55,443 bases of DNA, taken from Ruminococcus sp. (GTDB lineage Bacteria; Bacillota; Clostridia; Oscillospirales; Acutalibacteraceae). The stretch is from contig JAFUJH010000057.1 of NCBI GenBank assembly GCA_017473775.1, positions 1 through 55,443 on the forward strand. Reading direction: 5' to 3'. The position numbers and the translations under genes were made by a program. Position 1 is the first letter of the stretch; each line of letters starts with the position of its first letter. The notes beneath the pieces were generated by a model. It ran no database searches. It was given only the letters and a program-made list of their open reading frames with translations, and had not been told where the DNA came from. Positions 1 to 3,680 of this stretch are shown in pieces.

Positions 1-861
1 AATACCTTGCAAAAGCAAGAACGCCGCAAAGGGAGAAATGGTAGCGCCCGTATCACGAAGAAGTATTGCACGAATATAGGTAACAAAAGCGGCAGGGCCT
101 ACTGCCTTTACAAAGGACACGCCGTGATAGCTGGGGTTAGGATCGGCAATAGCGGGATACTTTCCGCTTGCCGCCCAATCGAATTTACCGGAATCAACAA
201 TGATACCGCCAAGCGTTGTACCGTGACCGCCGAGGAACTTGGTAGCGGAATGTACCACGATATCTGCGCCGTGCTCGATAGGACGGATGAGGTAAGGCGT
301 ACCGAAGGTATTATCTACCACGAGAGGTAAGCCGTGCTTGTGAGCAAGCTCTGCAAGTGCGTCAAGATCCGGAATATCGCTGTTGGGGTTACCGAGGGTC
401 TCGATGTAGATGGCTCTGGTGTTATCCTGAATAGCCGCCTCGACTTCGGCAAGGTTGTGAATATTTACAAAGCTTGCGGTGATACCGAAATTAGGCAATG
501 TATGGGCAAGCAGATTGTAGCTGCCGCCGTAGATGGTCTTTTGTGCAACAAAGTGTCCGCCGTTTTGGCCAAGTGCCTCAAGTGTATATGTAATGGCCGC
601 CGCACCCGAAGCAAGAGCCAGAGCTGCAACACCGCCCTCAAGGGCTGCCACGCGCTGTTCCAGAACATCCTGTGTAGAGTTGGTAAGTCTGCCGTAAATG
701 TTACCGGCATCGGCAAGGCCGAAGCGAGCCGCTGCGTGAGCGGAGCTCTTGAACACATAAGAAGTGGTTGCGTAAATCGGCACTGCACGGGCATCGGTTG
801 CGGGATCGGGATTTTCCTGGCCTACATGGAGCTGAAGAGTTTCAAATTTATAATTAGACAT
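1..861 (-). CDS. metY: O-acetylhomoserine aminocarboxypropyltransferase (sulfhydrylase), 3' end missing
   Basis: PLP enzyme of the Cys/Met metabolism family that makes homocysteine from O-acetylhomoserine and sulfide. I translated 287 codons from the ATG at 859-861 without a stop; the gene runs off the left edge, so about a third is missing. The start reads MSNYKFETLQLHVGQENPDP, and the PLP-lysine motif HSATKFLGGHGTTLGG is present, as is the IETLGNPNSDIPD segment typical of OAH sulfhydrylases. The start has a clear ribosome binding site (GAAAGGAA). The leader upstream is about 390 bases long and carries a Cys/Met-rich leader peptide and a terminator, which fits control by sulfur amino acid supply. 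A cystathionine gamma-synthase is possible but the motifs favour MetY/CysD type. Confidence 0.93.
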   Translation of the reverse strand, partial: MSNYKFETLQLHVGQENPDPATDARAVPIYATTSYVFKSSAHAAARFGLADAGNIYGRLTNSTQDVLEQRVAALEGGVAALALASGAAAITYTLEALGQNGGHFVAQKTIYGGSYNLLAHTLPNFGITASFVNIHNLAEVEAAIQDNTRAIYIETLGNPNSDIPDLDALAELAHKHGLPLVVDNTFGTPYLIRPIEHGADIVVHSATKFLGGHGTTLGGIIVDSGKFDWAASGKYPAIADPNPSYHGVSFVKAVGPAAFVTYIRAILLRDTGATISPFAAFLLLQGI

Positions 862-922
862 AATCGTTATTTCCTTTCGTTATTGAATGTTTGATGTATA
901 TGATTGATTGGATAGTTAATTT

Positions 923-994
923 TCACTTCATACATCGACACATTCGACCGAATCGAAAATTTGCTCTGACAAGCTTTTCAAAATAGTTTTCCAT
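923..994 (-). CDS. Candidate 23-aa upstream ORF with C-terminal Cys codons
   Basis: Short ORF between the leader terminator and metY, reading MENYFEKLVRANFRFGRMCR followed by CMK and a stop. Two Cys codons and two Met codons sit just before the stop, the placement expected for a regulatory uORF where translation would pause when Cys-tRNA or Met-tRNA is short. The Shine-Dalgarno is weak (AGGTAAG about 7 bases upstream). It begins just after the second copy of an 11-base repeat and ends 61 bases before metY. It can only be translated from transcripts that pass the terminator. Function is inference; it may be chance. Confidence 0.4.
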   Translation of the reverse strand: MENYFEKLVRANFRFGRMCRCMK

Positions 995-1009
995 AGGTTC
1001 TTACCTACC

Positions 1010-1053
1010 TTACAAAATAATAAATCGGAAGACTCCGATAAAGTCTCCCGATT
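1010..1053 (-). terminator. Intrinsic terminator in the metY leader (attenuator)
   Basis: On the minus strand a 12-bp stem (arms 1042-1053 and 1023-1034, one G-U pair) with a 7-base loop is followed by a U-rich tract (UUAUUAUUUU). It lies between the promoter and metY, so it must be passed for metY expression. Confidence 0.8.
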
Positions 1054-1123
1054 GTAAACAAATGTTATTCCGCAAAAAGAACGCGGCTTATGCATTTACC
1101 TCTGAGATGGAGAACATATCGGA
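1034..1123 (-). promoter_or_regulatory. Candidate antiterminator helix of the metY leader
   Basis: The leader-peptide codons 30-34 (1109-1123 on this strand) are complementary to 1034-1048, which is the 5' arm plus loop of the terminator. The helix would be 7 bp (TCCGATA with TATCGGA) plus 5 bp (TCTCC with GGAGA) with a 3x3 internal loop. It is mutually exclusive with the terminator. The strand lies just after the run of Cys codons, so a ribosome stalled there would leave it free, and one reaching the stop would cover it. This is the geometry of classical leader-peptide attenuation. Confidence 0.6.
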
Positions 1124-1210
1124 TTTTTTGACGCAAGAAATCATGCACATACAGCAAGCCTGCATGCACATCCCCTTCATCATAATAGAGGTGGAACCCG
1201 ACTTCTTCAT
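1088..1210 (-). CDS. Cys/Met-rich leader peptide, 40 aa
   Basis: ORF starting at the ATG 1208-1210 behind a strong ribosome binding site (GAAGGAAGGAGAAC). It lies about 40 bases downstream of the promoter. Residues 14-26 read MCMQACCMCMISC: five Cys and four Met in 13 codons. The stop lies 35 bases before the leader terminator. The position between a sigma-A promoter and an attenuator of a homocysteine/cysteine biosynthesis gene argues for a regulatory peptide whose translation reports Cys (or Met) tRNA charging. A metal-binding or other functional small protein is the alternative. I know no named family for it. Confidence 0.72.
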   Translation of the reverse strand: MKKSGSTSIMMKGMCMQACCMCMISCVKKSDMFSISEVNA

Positions 1211-1259
1211 GATTATGTTCTCCTTCCTTCTTGAATTACCTACCTTTTAGGTTGGTATA

Positions 1260-1288
1260 AGTATAGCACGCATTACCTCCCTTGTCAA
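1260..1288 (-). promoter_or_regulatory. Promoter of the metY leader
   Basis: TTGACA (1283-1288), 17-base spacer, TATACT (1260-1265), reading leftwards. An 11-base sequence AAGGTAGGTAA follows about 13 bases downstream (1236-1246) and is repeated exactly at 1001-1011, right after the terminator; a related CTACCTA overlaps the -35 region. These could be operator half-sites. The stretch 1289-1465 between this promoter and the integrase remnant shows nothing else. Confidence 0.85.
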
Positions 1289-1465
1289 TAGGTAGATGAA
1301 AATTTTTCTAAAGTTTTTAATGCCTCAAGCAAACGGTAGCAATGAGGCTTCACTATTGTTGCTATCTCTTTGAATACAAAAATTACGACTAAATGAATTA
1401 GCCTTTTTGAACTTCGTTCACGCAAAGTGTTTTATTGAGTATCTTTCTTACTCGTATGCAATGTA

Positions 1466-1831
1466 CTAACATGGATTGATTGCGGTGTTTACAAGACGAA
1501 TATACTCTGCTTTTGTCAGTTCCTTTTCTTCAGAACAAAAAGCCTTCTTCTGCACTTTGAACTGCTTAATGCAACAATCCACCCATCCCATAAACCGCAA
1601 AAAAGCATTCATCGCCGCAATCATAGAATTAGCACTTGTGATTTCGTAATTCTCTGCTAATAATGCCTTGAACTCCATAACAACCGCTTTGCTAATTTCT
1701 TTTGCACCTACAAACCCGCAAAACGCCATTACATCACGCAAATACTTCTCAATCGTGTTCTCGCTTTTTTCGTCCGAACGAAGATAGGTTTCAAAATCTC
1801 CGATCATTGAATTTGCAATAATTCTGCTCAT
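1466..1831 (-). pseudogene. Truncated tyrosine recombinase (N-terminal domain only)
   Basis: 121-aa ORF with good ribosome binding site (AAGGAGGACTTTCT before ATG). It resembles the N-terminal SAM-like core-binding domain of phage/ICE integrases: FETYLRSDEKSENTIEKYLR and a later AMNAFLRFMGW helix. The catalytic domain with its R...H-x-x-R...Y residues is absent; the frame ends at NTAINPC, where full-length members continue. I see no continuation downstream. It is most likely a relic of an integrated element, next to an intact serine recombinase transcribed divergently. Confidence 0.75.
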
Positions 1832-2019: not shown

Positions 2020-2166
2020 ATGACAAGCGAAAGAAAATGGCAACAATGTAAGCAATTCAGCGCGAGGCTTGCATTGGAGATGGTAAAAACAGAGCAAAAG
2101 AAAGGGCGTGATAAAACTATGTTACAAGAGAAAACTGAATATTGGCAGGAGGTGAACAACGAATGA
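2020..2166 (+). CDS. Hypothetical 48-aa protein, coupled to the serine recombinase
   Basis: ATG at 2020 behind AGAAAGGTGGAG; the stop overlaps the recombinase start in an ATGA arrangement. The product is polar and charged (MTSERKWQQCKQFSARLALE at the start, several Lys/Glu after) with no membrane segment. Translational coupling to the recombinase suggests an accessory role in the element, but no family is recognised. Confidence 0.6.
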   Translation: MTSERKWQQCKQFSARLALEMVKTEQKKGRDKTMLQEKTEYWQEVNNE

Positions 2167-3680
2167 CAGCAGTAATTTACGCAAGATATTCCTCGGACAA
2201 TCAGCGTGAGGAAAGCATTGACGGTCAGCTCCGTGAGTGTATGGCATTTGCAGAAAGGCAAGGTATTTCTGTAATTGATACCTACATCGACAGAGCATTA
2301 TCTGCTAAAACGGATAACCGACCGCAATTCCAGAAAATGATTAAAGACAGCTCCAAGAAAAAGTTTGATGTAATCATCGTATGGAAGTTGGACCGCTTTG
2401 CTCGAAACCGTTTCGATTCGGCTCATTACAAAAACGTACTGAAAAAGAACAAGGTCAAGGTGATCTCTGCAACCGAAAATATATCTGCCGGTTCGGAAGG
2501 TATATTGCTTGAATCCGTACTGGAGGGTATGGCAGAATACTACTCTGTTGAACTGTCAGAAAAGGTTACGAGAGGTCTTACGGAAAATGCCTTAAAATGT
2601 AAATTTAATGGTGGTACAGTTCCGATTGGCTATCTCATTAACAAGGAGCAGATGTTTGAGATTGATCCGTTAAAAGCTCCCTGGGTGCTTGAAGCCTTTA
2701 AGCTGTACGACAAAGGTAAGACCATTAAGGAGATCGTAACCCTGTTGAACACAAAGGGATTGACCACTTCTCTGGGAAGTGAGATCTCCATCAACATTGT
2801 AACGACTATGCTGAAGAATAGACGTTACATCGGTGAATATAAGTTTAAAGAGATTATTCACGAGAATGGTATCCCACAGATCGTTCCAACGGATTTGTTC
2901 AATAAGGTACAGGAGCAGTTACAGAAGAACAAAAAAGCCGCCGCAAGGCACAAGGCCGAGGACGACTATCTACTGACAACCAAGTTATACTGTGGCAAAT
3001 GCGGTGTTTATATGACAGGAGAAAGCGGTACGGGTAGGAACGGTACTGTACATCGCTACTATAAATGCAACAACGCTAAGTACAAGCACTCTTGTGATAA
3101 AAAGACCGTAAAGAAAGAACGGATCGAAGATATTGTTGTCCGCTACACCAAGGAGATGCTGTTGCAGGACGATGTGATTGAGGATATCGCAAACATCGTA
3201 CTCCGTGTAGCAAATACCGAAAATACATCTGTTATCCTTCTAAAACAGCAGTTGAGCGAAACAGAAAGAGCGATAGCCAATCTGATGAACGCTATTGAAC
3301 AGGGAATCATTACGACTACTACAAAACAGAGGATGATTGAACTTGAGAGCACAAAAGAAGAACTTGAATTAAAGATTATTAAAGAAGAACTGAAACGCCC
3401 TCCTCTTACCAAAGAGGGACTGGTTTTCTGGCTACAGAGATTCTGCAGCTTAGATACAACGAAAAAAGAACACAAGCAAAGACTCATTGACAGCTTCGTG
3501 AATGCAGTGTATGTATATGACGATAAGCTGGTTTTGACCTTTAACTACAACGAAGCAAATACTACCGTTACTCTTGATGAGGTAAATGGTTCGATTATAG
3601 AATGCTCTGGCGCACCATTGAAAACGAGAGTATCCTTAACGGACACTCTCGTTTTCATTTATCAGAACTGTGCAGGGTGA
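2163..3680 (+). CDS. Large serine site-specific recombinase
   Basis: 505-aa recombinase of the resolvase/invertase superfamily that would cut and rejoin att sites of a mobile element. The catalytic domain is at residues 3-140: YARYSSDNQ with nucleophile Ser10, and the VWKLDRFARNR motif. A recombinase (DNA-binding) domain follows at about 155-260, then a zinc ribbon (YCGKCG...YYKC...C) at about 278-320, then a coiled coil near 370-430. The ATG at 2163 is preferred over an upstream TTG (2142) because AGGAGGTGA sits 8 bases before it. No cargo genes flank it. The last codons overlap a terminator. It is probably the surviving recombinase of a decayed element or a very small one. Confidence 0.92.
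   Translation: MTAVIYARYSSDNQREESIDGQLRECMAFAERQGISVIDTYIDRALSAKTDNRPQFQKMIKDSSKKKFDVIIVWKLDRFARNRFDSAHYKNVLKKNKVKVISATENISAGSEGILLESVLEGMAEYYSVELSEKVTRGLTENALKCKFNGGTVPIGYLINKEQMFEIDPLKAPWVLEAFKLYDKGKTIKEIVTLLNTKGLTTSLGSEISINIVTTMLKNRRYIGEYKFKEIIHENGIPQIVPTDLFNKVQEQLQKNKKAAARHKAEDDYLLTTKLYCGKCGVYMTGESGTGRNGTVHRYYKCNNAKYKHSCDKKTVKKERIEDIVVRYTKEMLLQDDVIEDIANIVLRVANTENTSVILLKQQLSETERAIANLMNAIEQGIITTTTKQRMIELESTKEELELKIIKEELKRPPLTKEGLVFWLQRFCSLDTTKKEHKQRLIDSFVNAVYVYDDKLVLTFNYNEANTTVTLDEVNGSIIECSGAPLKTRVSLTDTLVFIYQNCAG
3621..3655 (+). terminator. Terminator overlapping the recombinase 3' end
   Basis: Arms 3621-3635 (AAAACGAGAGTATCC) and 3641-3655 are complementary with one mismatch and end in GTTTT. 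The hairpin lies inside the final codons, so the last 20 or so residues of the recombinase may be recently acquired by readthrough into downstream sequence. Confidence 0.65.

Follow-up and report, generated by a model that had tools for sequence, protein, structure and literature searches.

A probable layered sulfur amino-acid control region before a clostridial metY gene, with a Met/Cys attenuator and a second leader ORF carrying a conserved CGA-AUG codon pair

We analyzed the leader of a gene of the O-acetylhomoserine sulfhydrylase family (metY) located at one end of the window, meaning the whole 55,443-nucleotide stretch of DNA, and consider it reasonably probable that this leader is a layered sulfur amino-acid control region with 3 layers, comprising an operator-like dyad over the promoter, a Met/Cys-rich leader peptide (uORF1) with a transcription attenuator, and a second leader ORF (uORF2) built around a CGA-AUG codon pair. 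The attenuator is well supported as a case of a known kind of control, and the CGA-AUG leader family is widespread and apparently undescribed, with a mechanism that we infer from its conservation. The features are given below in the order in which they occur on the minus strand, down to the metY ATG at 861.

1274..1293, minus strand: operator-like dyad ACCTATTGACAAGGGAGGTA over the -35 box, matching the pattern ACCTAYTGACAANNNAGGTA
1260..1288, minus strand: sigma-70-type promoter TTGACA-17-TATACT with an extended -10 TG, agreeing with the consensus at 11 of 12 positions
1238..1256, minus strand: second dyad ACCAACCTAAAAGGTAGGT at the expected transcription start, with similar sequence in most of the 16 aligned leaders
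1236..1246: first copy of the direct repeat TTACCTACCTT, bordering the uORF1-terminator module on its upstream side
1219..1225, minus strand: Shine-Dalgarno (SD) sequence AAGGAGA of uORF1, read from sequence, with an AGGAG-type SD in the 16 aligned leaders
1088..1210, minus strand: uORF1, predicted 40-codon Met/Cys-rich leader peptide MKKSGSTSIMMKGMCMQACCMCMISCVKKSDMFSISEVNA, from ORF translation, with relatives
1133..1183, minus strand: uORF1 codons 10-26, where most of its Met and Cys codons lie; putative control codons, judged from sequence and peptide alignment
1109..1123, minus strand: antiterminator strand (region 2) TCCGATATGTTCTCC, uORF1 codons 30-34, from comparative pairing
1070..1086, minus strand: small hairpin CCGC..GCGG just 3' of the uORF1 stop, read from sequence
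1023..1053, minus strand: intrinsic terminator, a 14-pair stem and then TTATTATTTT, with region 3 at 1049..1034
1001..1011: second copy of the direct repeat TTACCTACCTT, bordering the uORF1-terminator module on its downstream side
923..994, minus strand: uORF2 MENYFEKLVRANFRFGRMCRCMK, with a weak SD, read from sequence, with homologues
938..946, minus strand: uORF2 core CGA-AUG-UGU, with the CGA kept among relatives
871..879, minus strand: metY ribosome binding site (RBS) region GAAAGGAAA, read from sequence
1..861, minus strand: metY, O-acetylhomoserine sulfhydrylase family, running off the window start (PF01053, E 3.3e-81)

Cut by the window end, metY is present as its first 287 codons, and its match to TIGR01326 (E 6.5e-125, 417.1 bits) is under the cut-off of 495.1 with only these 287 aa present. 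The PF01053 match agrees with a sequence-only reading made earlier, which had placed the leader before an O-acetylhomoserine sulfhydrylase, and that reading's single promoter ahead of a 40-aa leader peptide was confirmed as well.

We searched 203 leader contexts for a terminator preceded by an SD-led ORF with at least 2 Cys and at least 15% Met plus Cys, and uORF1 plus terminator was flagged in 24 of them, repeatedly before metY and MetQ-type genes. The window was counted twice (L051 and L180) and L176 is probably false, leaving 22 contexts, of which 6 (L136, L159, L174, L184, L193, and L211) were judged not alignable and left out; the DNA alignment comprises 16 leaders and the peptide alignment 15, the latter additionally omitting L107, nearly identical to L039. 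An ORF with its own SD is present in all 16 aligned leaders, and its translation is predicted. In 23 peptides, including the 22 flagged and L209 added by eye, 130 Met and 96 Cys were counted among 867 residues after the start, an enrichment due partly to selection because the peptides were collected with a Met-plus-Cys filter. Both Met-heavy peptides (Met/Cys 10/3, 7/2, and 5/2) and Cys-heavy peptides (3/5, 2/5, and 4/6) were found, and Met16 is the sole invariant residue besides the start in the 15 aligned peptides, which suggests that Met and Cys are probably both read as the signal. The peptide had been described as Cys/Met-rich, and this stands, but an emphasis mainly on Cys does not, with Met codons as prominent as Cys codons and Met16 invariant.

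The terminator stem begins 34 nt from the uORF1 stop, against the 35 bases given by the sequence-only reading, and region 2 (1123..1109) can pair with 1049..1034, within the terminator 5' arm and loop. Antiterminator and terminator are mutually exclusive because both use this same 5' arm. The fold of the 241-nt leader had a z of -4.27, with 0 of 200 shuffles as good. Across the 16 leaders, 92.5% of antiterminator cells were paired (slid controls 31-64%), and double-sided changes were identified at 3 pairs and in 4 cells, against 0.7 for each in shuffles, of which 9 and 1 in 500, respectively, reached the observed numbers; for the terminator, 87.4% of cells were paired (slid controls 36-61%), and 7 of the 14 pairs had changed on both sides, with 0 of 500 shuffles as high, although kinship among sequences can exceed shuffles without structure, against which the slid controls partly guard. 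Single-sequence duplex tests of the window were not significant (z -0.6, p 0.26 for L051; z -0.8, p 0.21 for L180), and the support for the antiterminator is therefore comparative; such z-scores were discarded as proof of it. With the module found in several families and both helices kept in the 16 leaders, ribosome-mediated transcription attenuation at the metY leader is well supported by comparison. The attenuator had been proposed with codons 30-34 against the terminator 5' arm and with an alignment of related leaders as a check, and there the double-sided changes in both helices exceeded the shuffles.

Region 2 is also perfectly complementary to the uORF1 SD stretch (GGAGAACATA with TATGTTCTCC). 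This possible protector helix was 89.5% paired in the 16 leaders, but 126 of 500 shuffles were as high and both strands are conserved for other reasons as well, and it was not retained as a proven part. Region 2 ends 18 nt (6 codons) before the uORF1 stop, a distance that the ribosome footprint is too short to reach across, so a terminating ribosome would not cover it. On both counts the term "classical" is too strong for this attenuator.

The metY leader has 2 relatives in its own genome, at C79 and C42. At C79 (80% identity), uORF1, terminator, and uORF2 precede a gene for an NlpA/MetQ-type lipoprotein (PF03180) that is under the NCBIfam MetQ cut-offs. The short leader at C42 has uORF2, without uORF1 and terminator, and precedes metY (complete, passing the TIGR01326 cut-off with 624.8 bits), a CysK-like gene named by reading its sequence, and an Rrf2-family regulator gene. 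In the window, the 11-nt TTACCTACCTT repeats flank the uORF1-terminator module, from which we infer that the module was a later insertion into, or duplication within, an older uORF2-only leader; the alternative is its deletion in C42.

Three perfect matches to ACCTAYTGACAANNNAGGTA were identified in the 2.46 Mb genome, all in leaders, together with 0 sites with 1 mismatch, 2 with 2, and 17 with 3, a level that is noise (38 matches of the reversed control within 3 mismatches); the pattern fits these leaders by construction because it was written from this and related leaders. The 3 leaders with the -35 dyad are those of the window metY, the second metY-cysK-Rrf2 cluster (C42), and the MetQ-type transporter (C79). 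The Rrf2-family protein of the C42 cluster (PF02082 E 1.1e-33; TIGR00738 116.2 bits, cut-off 73.3) is under both the CymR cut-off (NF047409, 88.2 vs 195 bits) and the IscR cut-off (103.4 vs 207.55 bits) and is therefore not named CymR. The lack of any further genome site with 0-1 mismatch, together with the Rrf2 gene in C42, argues for CymR/IscR-like control of the putative operator dyad, which is likely at metY. The sequence-only reading had seen no CymR-type control, yet a dyad lies over the -35 box at 3 leaders, all of sulfur genes.

That reading had also seen no S-box or T-box, and our searches agree. The Rfam covariance search of the window returned no S-box or T-box match at the gathering score, and only 2 irrelevant eukaryotic matches, far below the gathering score, were obtained when 850-1350 was searched at E up to 5; a known riboswitch or T-box was consequently set aside as the controller of the window leader. 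The riboswitch/T-box search found none in 20 metY loci lacking the uORF2 core, and a plasmid search with the leader gave no match. Elsewhere, the genome contains 1 SAM match and 11 matches to the T-box, 5 of the latter above the cut-off. One T-box match (G000:C42:58959-59218, plus strand, 90.1 bits) is just under the cut-off of 93 and lies on the strand opposite the short metY leader, its start some 90 bases away from the dyad there.

Only one leader peptide had been described; the second, uORF2 (994..923), was missed and is more widely conserved. It ends exactly at base 923, the edge of the span that the sequence-only reading had marked, and its peptide has the C-terminal end LVRANFRFGRMCRCMK. 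Among 116 distinct uORF2 sites, the Arg before Met is encoded by CGA in 112, by AGG in 3, and by CGC in 1, compared with CGA in 4 and 25 at two other Arg positions of the same peptides. The codon after AUG is TGT in 47 sites, TGA in 24, TGC in 21, TAA in 5, and others in 19. Twenty-nine of the 116 peptides end exactly at M-stop, and uORFs ending in RM-UGA have no Cys codon after the pair; of the 87 that continue, 83 have Cys within the first 6 residues, with Cys making up 166 of 415 residues in the first 6 after the core and 12 of 248 later. Pfam and NCBIfam models matched none of the window uORF1, the window uORF2, and the C79 uORF2, and NCBIfam models did not match the C79 uORF1.

Because the uORF2 search pattern biases its own relatives, we turned to an unselected set, the 68 metY loci for which a search of 147 genomes of the order supplied upstream DNA, and listed their SD-led short ORFs. 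The commonest codon pair of these uORFs was CGA-ATG, identified in 33 of the 68 leaders (shuffle mean 0.35), followed by ATG-TGA in 14, ATG-TGT in 13, and ATG-TGC in 10; the 33 leaders do not represent 33 independent origins because metY loci are related. CGAATG occurs in 40 of the 68 upstream regions, 33 times in frame with an SD-led ORF and 7 times not, and under this filter the pair was absent from an SD-led ORF in 35 leaders. The peptide bodies differ unrecognizably between families (e.g., MKANIQRRYCRM, MQFIFPLLLRAGWRCGRM, and MKINSLLLRKQLNDRM), and R-M as CGA-AUG recurs. A scan of 197 genomes with RAN[FY]R[FY]G, without the R-M lock, gave 17 matches, of which 12 had R-M (all CGA), 1 had R-T, and 4 were unrelated. 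A uORF2 with Thr (ACG) replacing Met was observed before an NlpA gene (L376, G178), and the metY leader of the same genome keeps Met.

The degenerate DNA scan for RAN[FY]R[FY]GRM identified 18 sites in 16 of 295 genomes of the order, 13 before metY and 5 before an NlpA-type gene, with 0 for the reversed pattern; a slightly looser scan identified 10 sites in 8 of 391 genomes of the class, with 5 genomes outside the order. In a scan of named genomes, at least 117 stretches had the uORF2 pattern, and the 80 titles listed among them were mostly Oscillospiraceae, Ruminococcus, or unclassified Clostridia; the pattern is also present in 2 Butyricicoccus genomes (L111 and L115), a genus with cultured members. 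By similarity, the downstream gene was metY in 86 and MetQ/NlpA in 18 (104 together). Of the remaining 13, L095, L132, and L169 are cut by contig ends and L093 is without a long ORF; the others precede an NlpA fused to a family-3 binding protein (L083), MetF at 424 nt (L172), a CysK-like stretch followed by a class-V aminotransferase (L127), a protein resembling the ABC ATPase of C79 (L145), and ABC permeases at 5 loci (L116, L137, and L146 by Pfam; L159 and L179, which share the N-termini of L146 and L137). On these scans, uORF2 is more widespread than uORF1. The pattern was also observed in bins named Spirochaetaceae, Treponema, and Treponemataceae (L079, L104, and L121), where AGG, CGC, and AGG, respectively, replace CGA, through either transfer or misbinned contigs.

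A scan of 117 genomes for SD-ATG-CGAATGTG gave 51 matches among those listed, 20 of them in frame, before metY (13, by position), metG for methionyl-tRNA synthetase (MetRS; 1), NlpA (1), an NMT1-type binding protein (1), an ABC permease 317 nt downstream (1), and unassigned genes (3). The core before MetRS was found in 2 species of one genus, with a different peptide start; these were 2 of 30 MetRS loci examined, among 36 matches, and with the core absent from the 28 other loci it was rejected as a general rule for MetRS leaders. From the 38 matches of the class scan, we inspected 30 with loci as well as G554:C109 (two overlapping) and G468:C3, leaving out G434:C53, G433, G460, G517, and G483. 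In-frame cases were metY (L338 and L344), MetQ/NlpA (L375), a family-5 binding protein (L377), a protein without a Pfam match (L374), and L328, L337, L349, and L354, taken as chance or as starts of other proteins. Since MetRS, MetF, MetY, and MetQ share methionine, we favor Met as the signal read at the AUG, with Cys added by the tail.

Pairing between the RNA after the core and the RBS had a p of 0.76 in the window. Values of p ≤0.05 were obtained in 5 of 32 metY leaders and 19 of 122 RAN-type leaders (the sets overlap and the sequences are related), with p 0.02 or better in L195, L199, L209, and L214, and a universal RBS-closing helix after the core was rejected, as it holds only in subsets. 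Complements of the core with at least 7 pairs were identified downstream in 35 of 95 RAN-type leaders, which are related sequences, vs 13.8 ± 3.0 in shuffles (maximum 25 in 200 rounds), and in 9 of 32 leaders of the metY set vs 5.7 ± 2.0, no clear excess; with the excess confined to the RAN-type set, such pairing was likewise not accepted as a general rule. The f10/f16 leaders look like a different subclass, with a logic opposite to that of the window type. In 5 of the 6 looked at (L189, L193, L194, L196, and L197), Cys codon(s) and then CGA-AUG are followed by an exact complement of about 10 nt to a GC-rich hairpin before metY, which in 3 of the 5 is terminator-like with a U-run; because the strand after CGA-AUG complements the hairpin, a ribosome waiting at the AUG would favor the hairpin, giving the opposite sign.

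In the layered model, a CymR/IscR-like Rrf2 repressor would bind the dyads over the promoter as the first layer. The second layer, whose anatomy and covariation were observed, would have a ribosome translating uORF1; when Met-tRNA or Cys-tRNA is scarce, it would stall at codons 10-26, and codons 30-34, left uncovered, would base-pair with the terminator 5' arm and let transcription continue; under good supply the ribosome would move on and the terminator would form. The third layer, whose conservation was observed, would act through uORF2 as a second, translation-dependent Met/Cys sensor, with a slow CGA directly before a single AUG and usually then Cys codons or a stop. CGA was slowly read in a Salmonella his-leader assay, according to PMC4046918, and from this a wait of the ribosome at the CGA before AUG may be supposed. 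A ribosome waiting for Met-tRNA, or at the following Cys codons, would mask the RNA just downstream. In some relatives this RNA supplies the 5' strand of an RBS-closing helix, and the wait would thereby open the RBS. More generally, we tentatively suggest that an inosine-read CGA in the P site might sensitize one Met codon and the following Cys codons to low charged tRNA, that Clostridia might use such a codon-pair sensor widely for Met/Cys genes, MetRS included, and that the pause might be wired to a helix downstream, either RBS-closing or terminator-linked. If true, the defining trait of this leader class would be a codon pair and not a codon run or a peptide.

Other explanations of uORF2 were considered. 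Regulation by uORF1 and the terminator alone, with uORF2 as a translation enhancer or reinitiation device that feeds metY and senses nothing, is in our view unlikely. In the 32 metY leaders holding CGAATGTG, the core lies 56-171 nt upstream of the gene, which fits this explanation, and PMC4833913 makes the case that reinitiation allows leader genes to increase translation. However, it leaves unexplained the locked CGA before Met, the Cys-rich tails, and the concentration on Met/Cys and transport genes. Arrest peptides of the metabolite-sensing sort, such as TnaC and SpeFL, are the model for a further explanation, in which the ribosome would halt at R-M-stop/Cys once its exit tunnel contains free Met, Cys, or SAM. 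The recurrence of RAN[FY]R[FY]GRM among many relatives whose other Arg codons are variable, the peptides ending exactly at M-stop, and the right sign that a ligand-induced pause would give in f10/f16 leaders are consistent with it, but distant families have an unrelated peptide body in which only R-M is left, with CGA fixed, and codon locking is unexplained by arrest peptides, which are read at the amino-acid level; we regard this explanation as improbable. It is quite doubtful that CGAAUGUG acts as RNA, through pairing or protein binding, and that its reading frame is incidental. Its 8-nt identity across unrelated peptides and the downstream complements in RAN-type leaders point that way, but about one-third of the 40 metY upstream regions with CGAATG would then be expected to have it in frame with an SD-led ORF, compared with the 33 found, and the complements in the metY set show no clear excess. 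Finally, a chance pairing of an unrelated Cys/Met-rich ORF and terminator, with an Rrf2-type operator alone controlling the gene, would accommodate the operator-like dyad and the nonsignificant single-sequence antiterminator but is made highly improbable by the double-sided changes in both helices of the 16 leaders and the recurrence of the module at metY and MetQ-type genes.

Ribosome-mediated transcription attenuation of the trp/his type involves a short leader ORF with codons for the end product and a competing terminator and antiterminator. The metY leader likewise has an SD-led ORF, end-product codons, a terminator, and a competing antiterminator, and differs in combining Met and Cys codons, in its occurrence in Clostridia, in an antiterminator strand lying inside the ORF 6 codons before the stop, and in a second leader ORF after the terminator. 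Translational attenuators of the ermC kind have a short leader ORF and a downstream RBS that a helix can close; uORF2 resembles them as a short leader ORF with a predicted RBS-closing helix in a subset of its relatives, but its signal would be Met/Cys supply, and the window itself lacks significant RBS pairing. Mycobacteria reportedly have cysteine-responsive, leaderless poly-Cys leader ORFs, going by the title of a 2020 work by Canestrari. Judged by that title, these share Cys codons in a small upstream ORF with the metY leader, which differs in being SD-led, carrying Met plus Cys, belonging to Clostridia, and having the CGA-AUG pair and a covarying terminator and antiterminator.

Compared with CymR-CysK control, as described in PMC2940859, the clustering of an Rrf2-family gene with a cysK-like gene and the dyad over the promoter are similar, and the C42 Rrf2 protein under the CymR and IscR cut-offs and the putative status of the operator are different. 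The T-box and S-box leaders of Firmicutes treated there serve the same pathway and sense tRNA charging or SAM, but had no match at the metY leader despite the genome matches elsewhere. His leader peptides precede hisS/hisZ in bacilli according to PMC2965389, whose authors were aware of no regular leader-peptide system previously known from bacteria other than Proteobacteria and Actinobacteria. A literature search, mostly beyond reach of subscription papers, returned no description of a CGA-AUG core or of such a Met/Cys leader. The metY leader adds Met/Cys leader-peptide attenuation, with support from comparison, to a group better known for T-boxes and S-boxes, together with a uORF2 leader family probably missed by annotation, and the locked CGA-AUG pair poses the question of whether starvation could be sensed through the context of one codon alone.

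Two ORFs just upstream of the metY promoter were also observed in the window. The one at 1466-1831 (minus strand) has, of a tyrosine integrase, the N-terminal SAM-like domain alone, and the one at 2163-3680 (plus strand) encodes a large serine recombinase (Resolvase, Recombinase, and zinc ribbon). They are the putative remains or edge of a mobile element beside the metY leader. Among the uORF2 loci, the metY of L037 has an in-frame TAA at codon 7, just after the start, reflecting a sequence error or a broken copy.
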